Of a stretch of DNA of 64,000 nucleotides, positions 24,063 through 30,764 are shown in pieces. The stretch covers positions 124,001-188,000 of the forward strand of contig NZ_PDLY01000002.1 in the NCBI RefSeq assembly GCF_014048465.1. Reading direction: 5' to 3'. Below the pieces are notes generated by a model. The model did not search any database, was not told the origin of the DNA, and saw nothing but the letters and a program-made list of their open reading frames with translations. Position 1 is the stretch's first letter. Each line of letters opens with the position of its first letter. The position numbers were made by a program, and so were the translations under genes. This DNA comes from Bombella mellum (GTDB taxonomy: Bacteria; Pseudomonadota; Alphaproteobacteria; Acetobacterales; Acetobacteraceae).

Positions 24063-24107
24063 CCATAGTTACTACATGGTTTCTGCTAGACTGGAGATAG
24101 CATTGTG
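24063..24107 (+). promoter_or_regulatory. Leader and ribosome site of sldB1, duplicated before sldB2
   Basis: This 45-base segment ending in the GTG start of sldB1 carries GGAG 9 bases before the start codon. It matches 35 of 45 bases with 26816-26860 before sldB2 without gaps. The duplication therefore included the translation leader. Confidence 0.7.
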
Positions 24108-24485
24108 TCGTCGTTATCATCTTCCAGACCAACATTAGGACCTGCAAGTCTGGCCATTCGTGCCCTCGCCCTGCTGATTCTACTGTTCGGCCTCTATTTC
24201 GTCATTTTCGGATCATGGCTCATCCTGCTTGGCGGGTCTTGGTATTACACCCCATGCGGCATCCTGCTCTGCATCTCCGGTGTCTATCTCTTCCGCCTGA
24301 GCCCTGTGGGAGCATGGAGCTACCTCCTCGCCTGGGCACTGACCATTCCGTGGACCATCTACGAAGTCGGCTTCCACTTCTGGGGATGGCTCCCCCGCCT
24401 TTTCGGCCCCACGCTGATCGCCATCGCCGTCGCAACGTGCCTGCCTTACCTTCTCCGTAACCAGAAGGACAACATCCATGCGTAA
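24105..24485 (+). CDS. sldB: PQQ-dependent polyol dehydrogenase small membrane subunit SldB, copy 1
   Basis: A 126-residue hydrophobic protein with four to five membrane helices (from about 17-42, then 46-62, 70-88 and 92-118). In Gluconobacter SldB is needed to activate and anchor the SldA quinoprotein at the periplasmic face of the inner membrane. The GTG start follows CTGGAGATAG. Its stop overlaps the sldA start by 8 bases (24478-24485). It is about 90 percent identical by eye to the second copy, with differences mainly at both termini. The symbol rests on gene pairing, size and resemblance to known SldBA. Confidence 0.85.
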   Translation: MSSLSSSRPTLGPASLAIRALALLILLFGLYFVIFGSWLILLGGSWYYTPCGILLCISGVYLFRLSPVGAWSYLLAWALTIPWTIYEVGFHFWGWLPRLFGPTLIAIAVATCLPYLLRNQKDNIHA

Positions 24486-26688
24486 TCAGGCCTATATTCT
24501 CGGTCTCCTGCTTGGCGGAACCATTCTGGGAGCCTCCCTGCCAGCCCGTCCAGTTCTGGCTCAGGTCCCTCCATCGCAGGGCACACCCGGATCGGATGAT
24601 GATGATACGCCCGTATCAAAACAGGCCGAGTCCAGAATCTTTCATGATCCGGCCCCCGGCACACCTCAGCCTGCTGGCGTCAATGCCGCCAACCTGCCTG
24701 ACATTGACGAACTACCAATCGACCAGCTGCCTCAGGCCGTCCCACAGGAAAGTGCCAACCCCAAACCGGATGACTGGCCGGCCTATGGGCGTGACGACCA
24801 GGCAACACGCTACTCCCCCCTGACCCAGATCACACCGAAGAACGTGAGCCAGCTCCAGCAGGTCTTCGTCTATCATACGGGCAGCCTTCCTCCGAAAGGG
24901 AAACCCAACAAATGGGCAGCGGAAACAACCCCCATCAAGGTTGGTGACTCCCTGTATCTCTGCTCCGCTACCAACGACATGATGCGCGTTGATGCCGCCA
25001 CCGGGCAGGAGAAATGGCATTTCCATGCTCATGAAAGTTATGACGCCATCCCCTACACGGCCGCCTGCAAGGCCGTCACATACTACACCTCATCCACCGC
25101 AGCAGAGGGGCAGCCCTGCCATAACCGCATCATCGAAGCGACGCTGGACAACCGTCTGATCGCCGTCGATGCCGAGGACGGCAAACTCTGTGAGGCATTC
25201 GGCCATGGTGGGCAGGTGAACCTCATGCAGGGCATGGGATGGTCAGTCCCCGGTTTCGTCGCCATGACAACAGCCCCTCCAATCATCAATGGTGTGGTGG
25301 TTGTCAATCATGAGGTGCTGGACGGCCAACGCCGCTGGGCCCCGTCTGGAGTGATCCGTGGCTATGATGCCGAAAGCGGAAAGTTCCTCTGGGCCTGGGA
25401 TGTCAATAATCCGGACAATCATCATCAGCCGGACAAGGATCATTATTACAGCCGAGGAACACCCAATTCATGGGCAGCCATGACAGGCGACAATGCTCTC
25501 GGCCTCGTCTATGTCCCTACAGGCAACTCGGCCGCCGATTATTACAGTGCCCTGCGCAGTGAAGCGGAAAACAGAGTCTCATCCTCCGTCGTTGCCCTTG
25601 ACGTCCGTACAGGTGAACCCCGCTGGGTCTTCCAAACCGTCCACAAGGATGTCTGGGACTATGACATCGGCTCTCAGGCCACCCTGTTCGACTATCATGC
25701 CGATGACGGAAGCGTCATTCCTGCCCTCATCATGCCAACAAAGCGGGGACAGACCTTCATTCTGGATCGCCGGACCGGCAAGCCCCTGCCTGACTTCCCC
25801 GTCGTCGAAAAACCGGCCCCCAACCCGGGCTTTGTCAAGGATGACCCACGGGCACCGACACAGCCCTGGTCCACGGGTGTGCCCCGCCTTGGCATACCGA
25901 AAATGACGGAAGCCAACACATGGGGCATCTCTCCGCTGGACCAGCTGGCCTGCCGCATCAAGTTCCGCAGAGCACATTATGTCGGCGAGTTCACACCGCC
26001 CACCATCAAACAGCCTTGGCTTGAATATCCCGGCTATAATGGTGGTAGTGACTGGGGCAGCATCTCCTACAACCCCCAGACGGGCATCATGCTGGCCAAC
26101 TGGAGCATACTCCCCATGTATGACCAGCTCGTGAGCCGCAAGAAGGCTGACAAAATGGGGCTGATCCCCATTGACTCACCGCAGTACAATCCCGGTGCGG
26201 GCGGCGCAGAAGGCAATGGTGCCCAGGCCCAGACACCTTATGGGATTGTCGTCACGCCATACTGGAACAGCTTCACCCAGATCATGTGCAATGAACCTCC
26301 CTACGGGATGATCACCGCCATCGACCTGAAAGCCCACAAGATACTGTGGCAGAAGCCCCTGGGAACGGCCCGGTCCAACGGACCATGGGGCATCGCCACA
26401 GGACTTCCGCTGAACATCGGTACGCCCAACAATGGCGGATCGGTCATGACGGCCGGCGGCCTTGCCTTCATCGGGGCCTCCACCGACAACTTGCTCCACG
26501 CCATCGACCTCAAGACCGGCAAAACGCTCTGGACCGGTGCCCTGCCCGGCGGTGGACAGGCCAATGCCATGACCTATGCCGTCAATGGTCGCCAGTATGT
26601 CGCCATCATGGCAGGAGGGCATCACTTCATGCGTAGCCCGGTCTCTGATGCTCTGGTTGTCTACGCCCTGCCAGAAAAGGAGAAATGA
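24478..26688 (+). CDS. sldA: PQQ-dependent polyol (glycerol/sorbitol) dehydrogenase large subunit SldA, copy 1
   Basis: A periplasmic quinoprotein that oxidises polyols (D-sorbitol, glycerol, D-arabitol and similar) to ketoses and passes electrons to ubiquinone. The 736-residue protein has a signal peptide cut near VLA (residue 28-29) and an eight-bladed propeller with PQQ-enzyme repeats. The VWDYDIGSQ motif (about 391-399) carries the likely catalytic Asp. The GVNAANLPDI and HEVLDGQRRWAPSGVIRGYD blocks match SldA rather than membrane glucose dehydrogenase. The region 559-606 keeps a glycine-rich loop (NPGAGGAEGNGAQ) that I recall from Gluconobacter SldA. Translationally coupled to sldB. Confidence 0.9.
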   Translation: MRNQAYILGLLLGGTILGASLPARPVLAQVPPSQGTPGSDDDDTPVSKQAESRIFHDPAPGTPQPAGVNAANLPDIDELPIDQLPQAVPQESANPKPDDWPAYGRDDQATRYSPLTQITPKNVSQLQQVFVYHTGSLPPKGKPNKWAAETTPIKVGDSLYLCSATNDMMRVDAATGQEKWHFHAHESYDAIPYTAACKAVTYYTSSTAAEGQPCHNRIIEATLDNRLIAVDAEDGKLCEAFGHGGQVNLMQGMGWSVPGFVAMTTAPPIINGVVVVNHEVLDGQRRWAPSGVIRGYDAESGKFLWAWDVNNPDNHHQPDKDHYYSRGTPNSWAAMTGDNALGLVYVPTGNSAADYYSALRSEAENRVSSSVVALDVRTGEPRWVFQTVHKDVWDYDIGSQATLFDYHADDGSVIPALIMPTKRGQTFILDRRTGKPLPDFPVVEKPAPNPGFVKDDPRAPTQPWSTGVPRLGIPKMTEANTWGISPLDQLACRIKFRRAHYVGEFTPPTIKQPWLEYPGYNGGSDWGSISYNPQTGIMLANWSILPMYDQLVSRKKADKMGLIPIDSPQYNPGAGGAEGNGAQAQTPYGIVVTPYWNSFTQIMCNEPPYGMITAIDLKAHKILWQKPLGTARSNGPWGIATGLPLNIGTPNNGGSVMTAGGLAFIGASTDNLLHAIDLKTGKTLWTGALPGGGQANAMTYAVNGRQYVAIMAGGHHFMRSPVSDALVVYALPEKEK

Positions 26689-26699
26689 CGTATTAACAT

Positions 26700-26733
26700 T
26701 TCCGGCCACATCATCAATAAAATGTGGCCGGAA
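26700..26733 (+). terminator. Strong hairpin after sldA copy 1
   Basis: A perfect 12-bp stem (TTCCGGCCACAT 26700-26711, ATGTGGCCGGAA 26722-26733) with a 10-base loop lies 11 bases after the stop. No T-run follows, so it may stabilise mRNA or only partly terminate, leaving open read-through into copy 2. Confidence 0.55.
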
Positions 26734-26815
26734 TACTATGATGGTTAACCTGTCAGACCTATGGAAAGTGGATATTAACCTCATCTATCAATTTCCGTGC
26801 CTTTCTTCATTACCC

Positions 26816-26860
26816 TCATAGTTACATCATGTTTTCTGATAAACTGGAGACAGAACCGTG
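26816..26860 (+). promoter_or_regulatory. Leader and ribosome site of sldB2 (paralogue of the sldB1 leader)
   Basis: Ungapped match of 35/45 bases to 24063-24107, with the same CTGGAGA ribosome site placed before a GTG start. Sequence further upstream is not clearly similar, so transcriptional control of the two copies may differ. Confidence 0.65.
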
Positions 26861-27238
26861 TCCTTTCTTTCTTATCCCGGGTCCAGGCCCAAGCCTGCCG
26901 ACCTGGCCATCTGGGCTCTCGCTGCGCTGATCCTGCTGTTCGGCCTCTATTTCGTCATTTTCGGGTCATGGCTCATCCTGCTGGGCGGGTCTTGGTATTA
27001 CACCCCATGCGGCATCCTGCTCTGCATCTCCGGTGTCTATCTCTTCCGCCAGAACCCGGTGGGAGCATGGAGTTACCTCCTCGCCTGGGCACTGACCATT
27101 CCGTGGACCATCTACGAGGTCGGCTTTCATTTCTGGGGATGGCTCCCCCGCCTTTTCGGTCCCACGCTGATCGCCATTGTCGTCGCAGCCTTCCTCCCCC
27201 GTCTCCTTCATAACCAGAAAGCACATTTCGATGCGTAA
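26858..27238 (+). CDS. sldB: PQQ-dependent polyol dehydrogenase small membrane subunit SldB, copy 2
   Basis: A 126-residue paralogue of the protein at 24105-24485 with the same helices and almost identical core. Changes cluster in the first 20 residues and the tail. It has a GTG start with CTGGAG upstream, and the same 8-base ATGCGTAA overlap with its sldA. The high similarity shows a tandem duplication of the whole sldBA unit. Whether each SldB serves only its own SldA is unknown. Confidence 0.85.
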   Translation: MSFLSYPGSRPKPADLAIWALAALILLFGLYFVIFGSWLILLGGSWYYTPCGILLCISGVYLFRQNPVGAWSYLLAWALTIPWTIYEVGFHFWGWLPRLFGPTLIAIVVAAFLPRLLHNQKAHFDA

Positions 27239-29435
27239 TCAGGCCTATCTTCTCGGTGCCCTGCTGGGAGGGACCATCCTCGGTGTTTCCCTCTCCTCCG
27301 CTCAGGCCCAGTCACCCGCTCCGCAGGATACCCCTCCCAGCACGAGCCACAAGACCGTTCCTGACTCCCTGACGGCTTCCAGCCTCTTTCATGACCCGGC
27401 CCCCGACACGCCTCAGGCTGCAGGCGTCAATGCCGCCAACCTGCCTGACATTGACGAGCTGCCAATCGACCAGCTGCCTCAGGCCGTCCCTCAGGAAAGC
27501 GCAGACCCGAAACCGGATGACTGGCCGGCTTATGGCCGTGATGACAGGGCCACACGTTATTCACCCCTGACCCAGATCACGCCGGAAAATGTGGGCAAGC
27601 TCCAGCGGGCCTTCATCTACCACACGGGCAGCCTCCCTCCCAAAGGCAAGATCAACAGGCTTGCGGCGGAAACGACCCCCATCAAGGTTGGTGACTCCCT
27701 GTATCTCTGCTCCGCCACCAACGACATGATGCGTGTCGATGCCGCCACAGGGCAGGAGAAATGGCGTTTCCATTCCCATGAAAGCTATGACGCCATTCCC
27801 TTCACCTCAGCCTGCAAGGCCGTCACCTACTATACGTCCTCAACGGTACCGGAAGGCCAGCCCTGCCATAACCGCATCATCGAAGGAACATTGGACAACC
27901 GTCTGATCGCCGTCGATGCCGAGGACGGCAAACTCTGCGAAACGTTCGGCCATGGTGGGCAGGTGAACCTCATGCAGGGCATGGGATGGTCAGTCCCCCG
28001 TTTTGTTGGCGTGACCAGCCCGTCCCCCATCGTGAATGGCGTGATCGTCGTCAATCATGAGGTACTGGACGGCCAGCGCCGCTGGGCACCATCAGGGGTT
28101 GTCCGTGGCTATGATGCTGAAAGCGGGAAGTTCCTCTGGGCCTGGGATGTCAATAATCCGGACAATCACCACCAGCCGGACAAGGATCATTATTACAGCC
28201 GTGGGACACCCAATTCATGGGCGGCCATGACAGGCGACAATGCTCTCGGCCTCGTCTATGTCCCCACGGGTAATTCAGCCGCCGATTATTACAGTGCCCT
28301 GCGCAGTGAGGCCGAAAACAGAGTCTCATCCTCCGTCGTGGCCATTGATGTCCGCACGGGTGCGCCCCGCTGGGTCTTCCAGACCGTCCACAAGGATGTC
28401 TGGGACTATGACATCGGCTCTCAGCCGACCCTGTTCGACTATCATGCCGATGACGGAAGCGTCATTCCTGCCCTCATCATGCCGACCAAGCGGGGACAGA
28501 CCTTCATTCTGGACCGTCGGACCGGCAAACCCCTACCTGACTTCCCCGTTGTCGAAAAACCGGCTCCCAACCCAGGCTTTGTCAAGGATGACCCACGGGC
28601 ACCGACGCAGCCCTGGTCCACGGGTGTGCCCCGCCTTGGATTCCCCAACCTAACCGAAGCGGACATGTGGGGAGCATCCCCGCTGGACCAGCTGGCCTGC
28701 CGCATCAAGTTCCGCAGGGCGCATTATGTCGGCGAGTTCACACCGCCCACCATCAAGCAGCCCTGGATCGAAGACCCCGGCTATAATGGTGGCAATGACT
28801 GGGGCAGCATCTCCTACAACCCCCAGACGGGCATCCTGTTCGCCAACTGGAGCCACATGCCCATGTATGACCAGCTTGTGAGCCGCAAGGAGGCCGACAA
28901 GCTGAAACTCTTCCCCATTGACGTTCCCGAGTACACGCCACGCCACGGCATCACGGCCGGCAATGCCTCCCAGGCCGAAACACCCTACGGTGCCCTGGTT
29001 GGTCCGTTCTGGAACACCTTCACACGGATGATGTGCAATGCTCCGCCCTATGGCATGATCACGGCCATCGACCTGAAGGCCCACAAGGTTCTGTGGCAGC
29101 ATCCTTTCGGCTCTGCCCGCGCCAATGGGCCATGGGGCATCGCCACTCACCTGCCTGTAACGATCGGTACGCCCAACAATGGCGGCTCTCTCATGACAGC
29201 CAGCGGCCTTGCCTTCATCGGTGCCGCTACCGACAACCAGCTTCATGCCATCGACCTCAAGACCGGCAAGACGCTCTGGACTGATGTCCTGCCCGGCGGT
29301 GGACAGGCCAATGCCATGACCTATGCCGTCAATGGCCGCCAGTACGTCGCCATCATGGCAGGAGGGCATCATCTGATGGGAACGCCCGTGTCTGATGCTC
29401 TTGTTGTCTACGCCCTGCCAGAAGAGAAGAAATGA
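27231..29435 (+). CDS. sldA: PQQ-dependent polyol dehydrogenase large subunit SldA, copy 2
   Basis: A 734-residue paralogue of the upstream quinoprotein with its own signal peptide (cut near AQA, residue 26). The PQQ propeller, VWDYDIGSQ motif and GTPNNGG region are intact, so it is probably active. Differences concentrate in the N-terminal linker after the signal peptide and in residues about 535-604. There the glycine-rich loop of copy 1 is replaced by YTPRHGITAGNASQ and neighbouring residues change (GALVGPFWNTF). This suggests changed substrate range, which is inference. The ATG at 27231 overlaps sldB2 by 8 bases and mirrors copy 1. Earlier in-frame codons lie inside sldB2. Confidence 0.9.
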   Translation: MRNQAYLLGALLGGTILGVSLSSAQAQSPAPQDTPPSTSHKTVPDSLTASSLFHDPAPDTPQAAGVNAANLPDIDELPIDQLPQAVPQESADPKPDDWPAYGRDDRATRYSPLTQITPENVGKLQRAFIYHTGSLPPKGKINRLAAETTPIKVGDSLYLCSATNDMMRVDAATGQEKWRFHSHESYDAIPFTSACKAVTYYTSSTVPEGQPCHNRIIEGTLDNRLIAVDAEDGKLCETFGHGGQVNLMQGMGWSVPRFVGVTSPSPIVNGVIVVNHEVLDGQRRWAPSGVVRGYDAESGKFLWAWDVNNPDNHHQPDKDHYYSRGTPNSWAAMTGDNALGLVYVPTGNSAADYYSALRSEAENRVSSSVVAIDVRTGAPRWVFQTVHKDVWDYDIGSQPTLFDYHADDGSVIPALIMPTKRGQTFILDRRTGKPLPDFPVVEKPAPNPGFVKDDPRAPTQPWSTGVPRLGFPNLTEADMWGASPLDQLACRIKFRRAHYVGEFTPPTIKQPWIEDPGYNGGNDWGSISYNPQTGILFANWSHMPMYDQLVSRKEADKLKLFPIDVPEYTPRHGITAGNASQAETPYGALVGPFWNTFTRMMCNAPPYGMITAIDLKAHKVLWQHPFGSARANGPWGIATHLPVTIGTPNNGGSLMTASGLAFIGAATDNQLHAIDLKTGKTLWTDVLPGGGQANAMTYAVNGRQYVAIMAGGHHLMGTPVSDALVVYALPEEKK

Positions 29436-29442
29436 CAGACCG

Positions 29443-29481
29443 TTCCTTCCGACCACCCTTCTACCGGGTGGCCGGAAGGAA
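29443..29481 (+). terminator. Hairpin after sldA copy 2
   Basis: A 16-position stem with one A-C mismatch (29443-29458 with 29466-29481) and a 7-base loop, starting 7 bases after the stop. It lacks a T-run on the plus strand. A second hairpin follows at once, so transcription probably ends in this region. Confidence 0.6.
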
Positions 29482-29493
29482 TGCTGCTGAAAC

Positions 29494-29531
29494 AAAAAAA
29501 GCGGAACCTCTGATGTCCCGAGGTTCCGCTT
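29494..29531 (-). terminator. Rho-independent terminator of the small minus-strand gene
   Basis: A perfect 12-bp stem (AAGCGGAACCTC 29499-29510, GAGGTTCCGCTT 29520-29531) is followed on the minus strand by a run of seven Ts (A-run 29494-29500 on plus). It ends transcription of the gene at 29562-29816 and separates it from sldA2. Confidence 0.9.
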
Positions 29532-29561
29532 CTCACTGTCTCCGGCTCTGACCGGCTATCT

Positions 29562-29816
29562 TCAGCGTGGGTGGGTCGGCGGGCAGTTGCAGCCACGTGT
29601 AGGAGCATTGGAACGCCGGATGATATGATGATCGATCCATTCCGATACGAGAAGCCGGGCCTCCGGCAGAGAAGCTTCCGGATGGTGGATCCGGTACAGT
29701 GTCGTGCAGGCAGCAAAGATTTTCATCTCACTCTGCCCCATGTCGTGCAGTTCCTGATACGCTGTGATTACGGCGCGTTCGCATTTACGACCGATATGTC
29801 CGGTATCAACTTTCAT
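29562..29816 (-). CDS. Small conserved-looking protein of unknown function
   Basis: An 84-residue soluble protein with a helical, His-rich middle (TTLYRIHHPEASLPEARLLVSEWIDHHI) and a Cys-containing tail (RGCNCPP). I do not know its function. Support for a real gene is an AGGGG ribosome site 8 bases before the ATG and a textbook terminator right after the stop. It is isolated between the convergent sldBA operon and the divergent pyrE. Confidence 0.7.
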   Translation of the reverse strand: MKVDTGHIGRKCERAVITAYQELHDMGQSEMKIFAACTTLYRIHHPEASLPEARLLVSEWIDHHIIRRSNAPTRGCNCPPTHPR

Positions 29817-29929
29817 ATCCTATACCCCTACGATACCCTGTTTCCCTAAGGAAAGACCTCCACTCAGGGAGGATGAAAGCTCTTATCGCCCCCATAAATG
29901 ACAGAGTAAAGCGTCATCAATAAGAGAAT

Positions 29930-29978
29930 GGGCAAAAAAGGCATCTTTGCCCTACCCCTCCCTTCTTCTAACGGGTAG
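29930..29978 (+). promoter_or_regulatory. Two adjacent hairpins in the pyrE leader
   Basis: GGGCAAA (29930-29936) / TTTGCCC (29946-29952) is followed directly by CTACCC (29952-29957) / GGGTAG (29973-29978). Both lie 40-90 bases before the pyrE start, and they share a base so cannot both fully form. They could be a regulatory leader. There is no T-run, so classical attenuation is not shown. Confidence 0.35.
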
Positions 29979-30020
29979 ATGTCTCCAAAGGAACCATTTT
30001 TCGAGATTACGGAGAGAATA

Positions 30021-30764
30021 ATGCCTGCATCTGGCACAGCATCCAATCTGGGCATCCGCCCCACACAGTGGGACCGTGATGCTGCGCTGACGACGGCGCG
30101 CATTCTTCTGGAAATCAAGGCCATCAACTTCCGCCCCAGCGAACCTTATACCCTGACATCCGGCTGGAAATCCCCCGTCTACATCGACTGCCGCAAGATC
30201 ATTTTCTTCCCCCGTGCCCGCAAGAAACTGATGGAACTGGCCGTCGAAAAGATTGGCCGCCACATCGGGTATGAAAGCATCGATGCTGTCGTGGGTGGTG
30301 AGACGGCAGGTATTCCTTTCTCCGCATGGATTGCCGACCGGCTGATGACGCCAATGGCCTATGTCCGCAAGAAGCCCAAAGGCTTTGGCCGCAACGCACA
30401 GATTGAAGGTGACGTGCCGGAAGGCATGCGCACCCTTCTGGTGGAAGACCTGACAACGGACGGTGCCTCGAAGATCCGCTTTGCCAACGCCCTGCGTGAG
30501 GCAGGGGCCATCGTGGATCACACGTTTGTCGTGTTCTTCTATGGCGTGTTCCCGGGTGCCCAGAAAACCCTGCAGGACATGGGCATAAGCCTGCACGCCC
30601 TCTGCACATGGTGGGATGTGCTGGAAGCCTGTGCGGACGGTCAGTATTTCTCAGCTGAAGACAGTGCCGAAGTCCGCCGCTTCCTAGAAGACCCATGCAG
30701 CTGGTCCAAGGCACATGGTGGTGTGGGCAGCGCAGAAGAAGCCCTGGCCTTCAAGCGGGGCTGA
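30021..30764 (+). CDS. pyrE: Orotate phosphoribosyltransferase PyrE
   Basis: Forms orotidine monophosphate from orotate and PRPP in pyrimidine synthesis. The 247-residue protein has the family start (FxPSEPYTLTSGWKSPVYIDCRK, about 37-59), the catalytic loop region (RKKPKGFGR) and the PRPP-binding motif LLVEDLTTDGASK (about 138-150). The ATG at 30021 follows GGAGAG, which places the start there rather than at 29979. The protein is longer than the E. coli enzyme and matches the alphaproteobacterial form. Its 200-base leader contains hairpins. Confidence 0.95.
   Translation: MPASGTASNLGIRPTQWDRDAALTTARILLEIKAINFRPSEPYTLTSGWKSPVYIDCRKIIFFPRARKKLMELAVEKIGRHIGYESIDAVVGGETAGIPFSAWIADRLMTPMAYVRKKPKGFGRNAQIEGDVPEGMRTLLVEDLTTDGASKIRFANALREAGAIVDHTFVVFFYGVFPGAQKTLQDMGISLHALCTWWDVLEACADGQYFSAEDSAEVRRFLEDPCSWSKAHGGVGSAEEALAFKRG

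Follow-up and report, generated by a model that had tools for sequence, protein, structure and literature searches.

The stretch analysed here (the window) comprises 64,000 nucleotides of Bombella mellum, an acetic acid bacterium associated with bees (assembly GCF_014048465.1, contig NZ_PDLY01000002.1, positions 124,001 to 188,000 of the forward strand) and carries two complete, head-to-tail sldBA units. Each encodes a small membrane subunit, SldB, and a large subunit, SldA, which belongs to the dehydrogenases dependent on pyrroloquinoline quinone (PQQ). Repeated gene conversion between the copies is read here as having homogenised the core of SldA and the middle of sldB while sparing one block of SldA. 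The second large subunit, SldA2, appears to form an SldA subclass of Bombella in which catalysis has changed, probably as regards substrate range. Taken as a whole, this reading (duplication in place, altered catalysis in SldA2, conversion that spares the block) is considered probable. The duplicate itself and the paralogous sets of Gluconobacter are already in print. The genes and the segments of interest are as follows.

24105..24485, + strand: sldB1, small membrane subunit, 126 amino acids (aa); GTG start; TIGR03074 positions 3-102
24478..26688, + strand: sldA1, PQQ dehydrogenase subunit, 736 aa, ancestral type (GGAEGNGA loop); TIGR03074 positions 144-783; PF01011
25255..25812, + strand: sldA1 core, residues 260-445, homogenised with copy 2; region trees, approximately unbiased (AU) tests, synonymous divergence
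26065..26367, + strand: sldA1 paralog-specific block, residues 530-630, family-type glycine-rich loop; trees, diagnostic sites, loop comparison
26858..27238, + strand: sldB2, small membrane subunit, 126 aa; GTG start; TIGR03074 positions 3-97
27231..29435, + strand: sldA2, PQQ dehydrogenase subunit, 734 aa, derived type (RHGITAGNA loop); ATG at 27231
28002..28559, + strand: sldA2 core, residues 258-443, homogenised with copy 1; region trees, AU tests, synonymous divergence
28812..29114, + strand: sldA2 paralog-specific block, residues 528-628, derived loop; A2 clade 100/99 in the block

Unit 1 spans 24105-26688 and unit 2 spans 26858-29435. The original prediction had described two full units with GTG starts and the same 8-base sldB/sldA overlap, and the coordinates agree: the overlap is ATGCGTAA in both (24478-24485 and 27231-27238). 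The shared 45-base leader it reported (35/45 identical) was recovered as a repeat of 46 nt with 80% identity (24064-24109 vs 26817-26862). The start of sldA2 was taken to be the ATG at 27231; an alternative TTG at 27177 in the list of open reading frames would give a protein of 752 aa.

Within the window, SldA1 and SldA2 are identical at 621/736 aligned columns and SldB1 and SldB2 at 104/126. As had been proposed, divergence is uneven along SldA. In segments of 40 codons, protein identity reaches 39-40/40 over residues 281-360 and 381-460 and is lowest at 21-60 (16/40) and 561-600 (22/40). The claim that most of SldA is near identical goes too far: it applies to about residues 280-470, and elsewhere the segments range from 40% to 95%. 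Synonymous distance (dS) is uneven too, at 0.13 for codons 381-420, 1.46 for 561-600 and 1.56 for 21-60, and in sldB it is 0.10-0.21 in segments within codons 21-100 vs 0.84-0.87 at the ends. Because synonymous divergence varies along the gene, gene conversion is indicated rather than selection alone. The pairwise ratio of nonsynonymous to synonymous distance (dN/dS), which the original prediction wished to see computed along the gene, is below 1 in every segment, and positive selection therefore gets no support.

The same mosaic was found across the genus in region trees of codon alignments (14 Bombella and 6 outgroup SldA). Block 530-630 groups by paralog, with an A2 clade (support 100/99) and an A1 clade (75/87). 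Core 260-445 pairs the copies by species in B. pluederhausensis (99/96) and B. apis (100/97), and further groups there unite B. saccharophila with Bombella sp. ESL0385 (100/99) and B. intestini with B. favorum (98/99). For the core, the AU test rejects both an A1 clade (p 0.0008) and an A2 clade (p 0.0002). In 6/6 tandem species (among which B. intestini and B. favorum are close kin) the synonymous difference between twins is 0.13-0.35 in the core vs 0.51-0.86 in the block, and the mean between orthologs, from which B. favorum was excluded as a near-duplicate of B. intestini, is 0.62-0.71 in core and block alike. Convergence of codon usage within a genome was rejected as the whole cause of the low twin divergence, since synonymous divergence in the block is far higher.

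At 424 synonymously variable sites, stretches of consecutive identical codons were also compared with 5000 shuffles in the six tandem species. By sum of squares the observed stretches surpass the shuffles in all six, the number of shuffles that reached the observed value being 23 for the window, 12 for B. favorum and 0 for each of B. pluederhausensis, B. intestini, B. apis and B. saccharophila; by longest run it was 4 for B. apis and 0 for the other three of these four. Where the longest identical tracts fall in the protein differs from species to species, and SldB variants are common to both copies within a species (judged by eye). In the core of the sister species, twins are thus closer to each other than orthologs are, and in tracts, as in concerted evolution; the pattern is weaker in the window's genome. 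A tree of flanking genes from 8 Bombella resolved only B. saccharophila with ESL0385, B. intestini with B. favorum, and B. apis with the latter pair (80/99).

Several results weigh against this account of conversion. The borders of the SldA regions were set after the profile had been seen, and the p-values are to be weighed accordingly. Regions 1-75, 76-230 and 631-736 are mixed, with AU p values of 0.04-0.31 (0.04-0.12 for the paralog clades in the last two). The longest run was reached in 183/5000 shuffles for the window and in 153/5000 for B. favorum, and one of five cross-species controls was borderline by sum of squares (227/5000), the other four being unremarkable. The core synonymous difference in the window is 0.34 (Fisher test of core vs block, p 0.022), which makes conversion weaker there than in the sister species. 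The window's copies pair with a support of only 76/85 in the full core tree and 49/52 beside B. pluederhausensis alone, and beside B. apis alone they are not sisters (60/72 against). The signal is nonetheless present in the window: beside either of these two species, a core tree that groups its copies with their orthologs is rejected (p 5e-5 to 1.6e-4), and so, in the block, is one that pairs the window's copies with each other (p 0.0046 and 1.6e-6). The mosaic of segments is supported by the trees and synonymous differences together.

SldA2 is the changed copy. SldA1 keeps the GGAEGNGA loop, and most of the 74 SldA examined from outside Bombella carry it or a slightly varied form. The SldA2 loop is RHG[IM]TAGNA, or RPGVSAGNA in B. 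dulcis. The prediction that copy 1 keeps a glycine-rich loop and copy 2 differs was correct in this respect (GGAEGNGA vs RHGITAGNA). Altogether 32 diagnostic positions separate 7/7 SldA1 from 7/7 SldA2, of which 14 fall within residues 551-600; outside the block, sites 145, 146, 193, 195, 259 and 717 are SldA2-specific in 7/7. Family-conserved columns (at least 97% of background) were counted with 88/91 proteins, the distant L067_1, L068_1 and L070_1, which resemble membrane glucose dehydrogenase (mGDH), being excluded. SldA2 departs at 10/284 of them in 7/7 sequences and SldA1 at 3/272, which supports an asymmetry of change at conserved sites. The ten SldA2 changes are K145R, W146L, Y193F, A195S, G259R, Y517, E578A, G581A, I590 and F717L; all but those at Y517 and I590 occur in no non-Bombella SldA of this comparison.

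In the block, the proportion of nonsynonymous differences (pN) is 0.15-0.19 between paralogs vs means of 0.045 and 0.077 among orthologs at similar synonymous distance. These values are in line with a burst of replacements between the copies, followed by constraint. The original prediction of duplication followed by specialisation is supported for block 530-630 and some other sites (32 diagnostic positions, 10 conserved-site changes), and specialisation of the two copies is likely on this evidence. The post-signal linker, which it had also named, gives no more than a weak indication of specialisation. Its pN between paralogs is 0.27-0.34 in 5/6 tandem species vs ortholog means of 0.175 and 0.220, and over residues 1-75 6/7 SldA2 form a clade (96/99), yet it is the least constrained part of SldA and holds 1/32 diagnostic sites. 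In B. pluederhausensis the linker difference between paralogs was overwritten (pN 0.12, with 47 consecutive identical synonymously variable codons over residues 11-117), and both enzymes persist.

Residues were placed relative to the PQQ pocket by sequence alignment to relatives. D394, K422 and H715 of SldA1 align with D466, K493 and H775 of Escherichia coli Gcd, which we take to be catalytic, and all three are kept in SldA2. The ETTP glutamate, three residues past W146, aligns with the LEATP glutamate of 1kv9, and A196-C197, just past Y193 and A195, align with its adjacent cysteine pair. T194 aligns with Gcd H262, and H715 (Gcd H775) adjoins F717. In the relatives these aligned positions presumably contact PQQ or substrate. 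Several clusters of SldA2 changes would then flank the predicted pocket, and altered catalysis seems the more plausible because the changed conserved sites align beside these presumed cofactor positions. Weighing against this placement, pocket proximity depends on the alignment, and both the loop (in both AlphaFold models) and the stretch just before Y193 have a predicted local distance difference test (pLDDT) score below 50.

SldA2 is evidently under purifying selection: the reading frame is open in 7/7 SldA2, and pN among A2 orthologs is 0.05-0.09 at a proportion of synonymous differences (pS) of 0.53-0.76. It does not seem to depend on SldB2, because B. saccharophila has sldA2 without a second sldB and because in B. 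dulcis SldA2 is the only SldA and its sldB bears a B1-like N-terminal tail. In the window, B. intestini, B. favorum and B. apis, the N- and C-terminal tails of SldB1 differ from those of SldB2.

Genes like sldA2 appear to be absent outside Bombella, as judged from the best 80 of the 433 candidates and from scans with motif patterns. A narrow DNA pattern for the SldA2 motif, which proved too narrow, matched 1/299 genomes, the window's own. A wider pattern matched 14/150 genomes, three of the matches being Bombella sldA2; five of the other 11 loci were checked and none holds sldA. The chances are about even that SldA2 represents a new catalytic subclass, found only in Bombella among the data examined, with a substrate that is not oxidised by other SldA. 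This substrate may be a sugar, polyol or acid from the bee niche, and the subclass would be kept distinct by selection against ongoing conversion.

The loci of relatives date the duplication. Saccharibacter (L013, L014) and Acetobacteraceae ESL0709 (L011) possess one sldBA, with the same neighbours as the Bombella pair: smc, a phosphoesterase gene and a chorismate mutase gene on one side, and pyrE, murI and ispB on the other (labels from sequence). All tandem Bombella loci examined share one position and one order. Because a single sldBA lies between the same neighbours in Saccharibacter and ESL0709, the duplication is most simply placed at this site in the Bombella ancestor. Both SldA types are present in 5/7 named Bombella loci. 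The order is B-A-B-A in B. pluederhausensis, B. intestini, B. favorum and B. apis, B. saccharophila is B-A1-A2 with no second sldB, and among the named loci Bombella sp. ESL0385 has only SldA1 and B. dulcis only SldA2. Across genomes (a set overlapping the named loci), two SldA are found in 7/11 Bombella and one in 2/11. In genome G007 contig ends interrupt the locus, leaving a start of SldA1 type and an end of SldA2 type; genome G010 gave only an mGDH-like match, with no SldA and no sldBA match between the flanking genes. The duplication is not recent and predates the Bombella species sampled. The pair is common to most Bombella genomes examined and its identity is strongly uneven, which does not fit a recent duplication for dosage.

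One of the seven two-SldA genomes, G009, has short runs of N in both copies. They lie at the same core codon position of both SldA (L101:1484-1503 and L108:1488-1503), with 98% identity between the copies over the flanking 100 nt. They appear to be an assembly gap that the homogenised repeat produced.

The proposed course of events begins with duplication of the sldBA operon in place in the ancestor of Bombella. Copy 1 would have kept the ancestral enzyme, and copy 2 would have gained replacements in block 530-630 and in the flanks of the PQQ pocket that probably altered its substrate range or kinetics. Both copies would then have been held under purifying selection, and conversion between them would repeatedly have homogenised the middle of sldB and the propeller core within each species. 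We infer that the distinguishing block was kept apart through selection against converted copies together with its own sequence mismatch. The shared repeats would also have let recombination delete units, which would account for the sister species with one copy or three genes.

The block might instead fit SldA2 to a different partner (SldB2, a quinone or the membrane) and have little to do with substrate. The distinct SldB tails in the window, B. intestini, B. favorum and B. apis and a linker that differs in most pairs would agree with this, but SldA2 occurs without a B2-type gene in B. saccharophila and B. dulcis, and the changed conserved positions around 145, 193-195 and 717 align next to what are presumably cofactor positions in relatives; such a change of partner is unlikely. 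Slightly less likely still is that the copies serve dosage only, with conversion neutral or favouring sameness and the block left over by chance failure of conversion. Residues of the catalytic type are indeed kept in both copies and conversion covers much of sldA and the middle of sldB. A leftover block should not, however, be constrained as this one is (its loop recurs in most of the 74 non-Bombella SldA, and ortholog pN is 0.045 and 0.077), nor should the same 32 differences separate 7/7 sequences from 7/7.

Decay of SldA2, or loss of its dehydrogenase activity, is improbable. Ten family-conserved positions are changed, W146 and E578 among them, and in B. apis G773c one copy is frameshifted according to PMC9147383, which does not state there which of the two it is. 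Against decay stand the open frames in 7/7, the low pN among A2 orthologs, the retained catalytic-centre residues D, K and H and the status of SldA2 as the sole SldA of B. dulcis. It is very improbable that each species duplicated sldBA anew and received the SldA2 block by horizontal transfer. The core trees do pair the copies by species, as repeated duplication would. That scenario is contradicted by the single position and order of the tandem loci and by the longest identical tracts, which differ in position between species, and the SldA2-specific sites outside the block in 7/7 would require several parallel imports.

Family assignment of the proteins is consistent with these readings. PF01011 covers residues 100-708 of SldA1 and 98-706 of SldA2, as in catalytic subunits with a PQQ beta-propeller. 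Against TIGR03074 they score 754.5 and 753.1 bits, below the cut-off of 832.65, as expected because the N-terminal membrane part is not in SldA. SldB1 matches positions 3-102 of this profile, SldB2 3-97 and both SldA 144-783, each alone below the cut-off; with the separate small membrane subunit just upstream, SldB and SldA together span this profile of membrane glucose dehydrogenase. SldB1 has no match in the PDB up to E 1 and no Pfam family. The AlphaFold model of SldA2 (pLDDT 77.9, predicted template modelling score 0.84) matches PQQ dehydrogenases, best 4mh1 (Z 32.0, root-mean-square deviation 3.0 over 458 residues). The window's genome has pqqC and pqqE, both above the profile cut-offs; the pqqE profile also scores in all 14 control genomes, below the cut-off there. 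Given its departures at 10/284 family-conserved columns (SldA1 3/272), SldA2 reads as a divergent member of SldBA rather than a non-member. The predicted function of SldBA is oxidation of polyols (glycerol, sorbitol and others) with a quinone acceptor.

Leaders and hairpins flank both units.

24064..24104, + strand: unit 1 leader, ends at the GTG and has GGAG; direct repeat D7, similar in other Bombella units
26700..26733, + strand: perfect 12-bp hairpin 3' of sldA1, terminator-like, no clear T run; 72-nt stretch -23.8 kcal/mol, z -4.29
26817..26857, + strand: unit 2 leader, ends at the GTG and has GGAG; direct repeat D7, similar in other Bombella units
29441..29483, + strand: hairpin 3' of sldA2, no clear T run; 78-nt stretch -35.5 kcal/mol, z -6.81

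Hairpins are also found 3' of sldA1 in the B. pluederhausensis, B. intestini and B. apis loci (judged by eye). Each sldBA unit looks like a separate transcription unit because a strong hairpin follows each sldA, also in relatives. A consensus promoter scan found 2 sites vs a shuffle mean of 2.2, i.e. no excess, and scans of the 64-kb window for Rfam families (gathering threshold) and tRNA genes gave no matches.

Downstream of the pair, a small gene at 29562-29816 (- strand, 84 aa, of the HIGRKCERAVITAYQEL... type) is closely matched by genes in the corresponding position in Saccharibacter (L013) and ESL0709 and belongs to no Pfam family. Between sldBA and pyrE a citrate synthase gene (PF00285) is present in Saccharibacter (L013:8232-9572) and ESL0709 (L011:8374-9651), and no such gene was found at 29436-30038 of the window, the corresponding interval. 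A relative of it lies elsewhere in 7/11 Bombella genomes; the window's genome and three others gave no match. In PMC9147383 it is B. favorum, not B. mellum, that is named as being without citrate synthase. By contrast, genome G003, the sldBA coordinates of which are those of the B. favorum locus, does have the gene. The two species may have been swapped in that statement, or the window may come from another strain.

The twins amount to a natural experiment, in which conversion erases neutral differences and the surviving ones mark residues that probably matter for a functional difference between the copies. From them comes a short list of sites at which specificity might be altered in these dehydrogenases, a family employed industrially for oxidative fermentation. 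They also offer a role that can be tested for the undefined membrane dehydrogenases of bacteria associated with honeybees.

The closest known system is the SldBA glycerol (polyol) dehydrogenase of Gluconobacter, which has the same order, with the small membrane subunit first, and the same PQQ propeller. SldA1 is 63-72% identical to Gluconobacter SldA among the best 80 of 433 candidates, whereas SldA2 differs from the Gluconobacter enzyme at the 10 conserved positions, including the KW of KWAAETTP and the E of GGAEGNGA. A second sldBA besides the working one is known there too. According to PMC8927921, G. oxydans WSH-003 has sldBA1 and sldBA2, and sldBA2 has no activity on D-sorbitol despite high homology. 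G. thailandicus NBRC 3255 possesses two sldBA sets, one of them named glycerol dehydrogenase, but their locus tags set them apart and they are not tandem as in Bombella (PMC3624681). Gluconacetobacter aggeris, Ga. asukensis and Ga. tumulicola (L052, L053 and L054) do contain two head-to-tail sldBA units, the copies being 86-91% identical. Around L052 and L054 the genes that flank the Bombella locus were not found, and both copies have the family-type KW and a near-family loop. This looks like a separate duplication.

For Bombella itself, PMC9147383 describes a duplicate membrane-bound alcohol dehydrogenase, of undefined substrate spectrum, in all genomes but three. This is the same pair as described here, and the term gene conversion is absent from the main text of that paper. 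The single copies of the three strains are called truncated there, but ESL0385 has an SldA1 of 735 aa and an sldB here (L006:6001-8208). No paper on conversion between the Bombella copies turned up in literature searches. For paralogs of prokaryotes in general, concerted evolution that lasts long is known from PMC6053082. The likeness is that paralogs are closer within a species than orthologs are, and the difference is that in Bombella only part of the gene is affected and one block resists.

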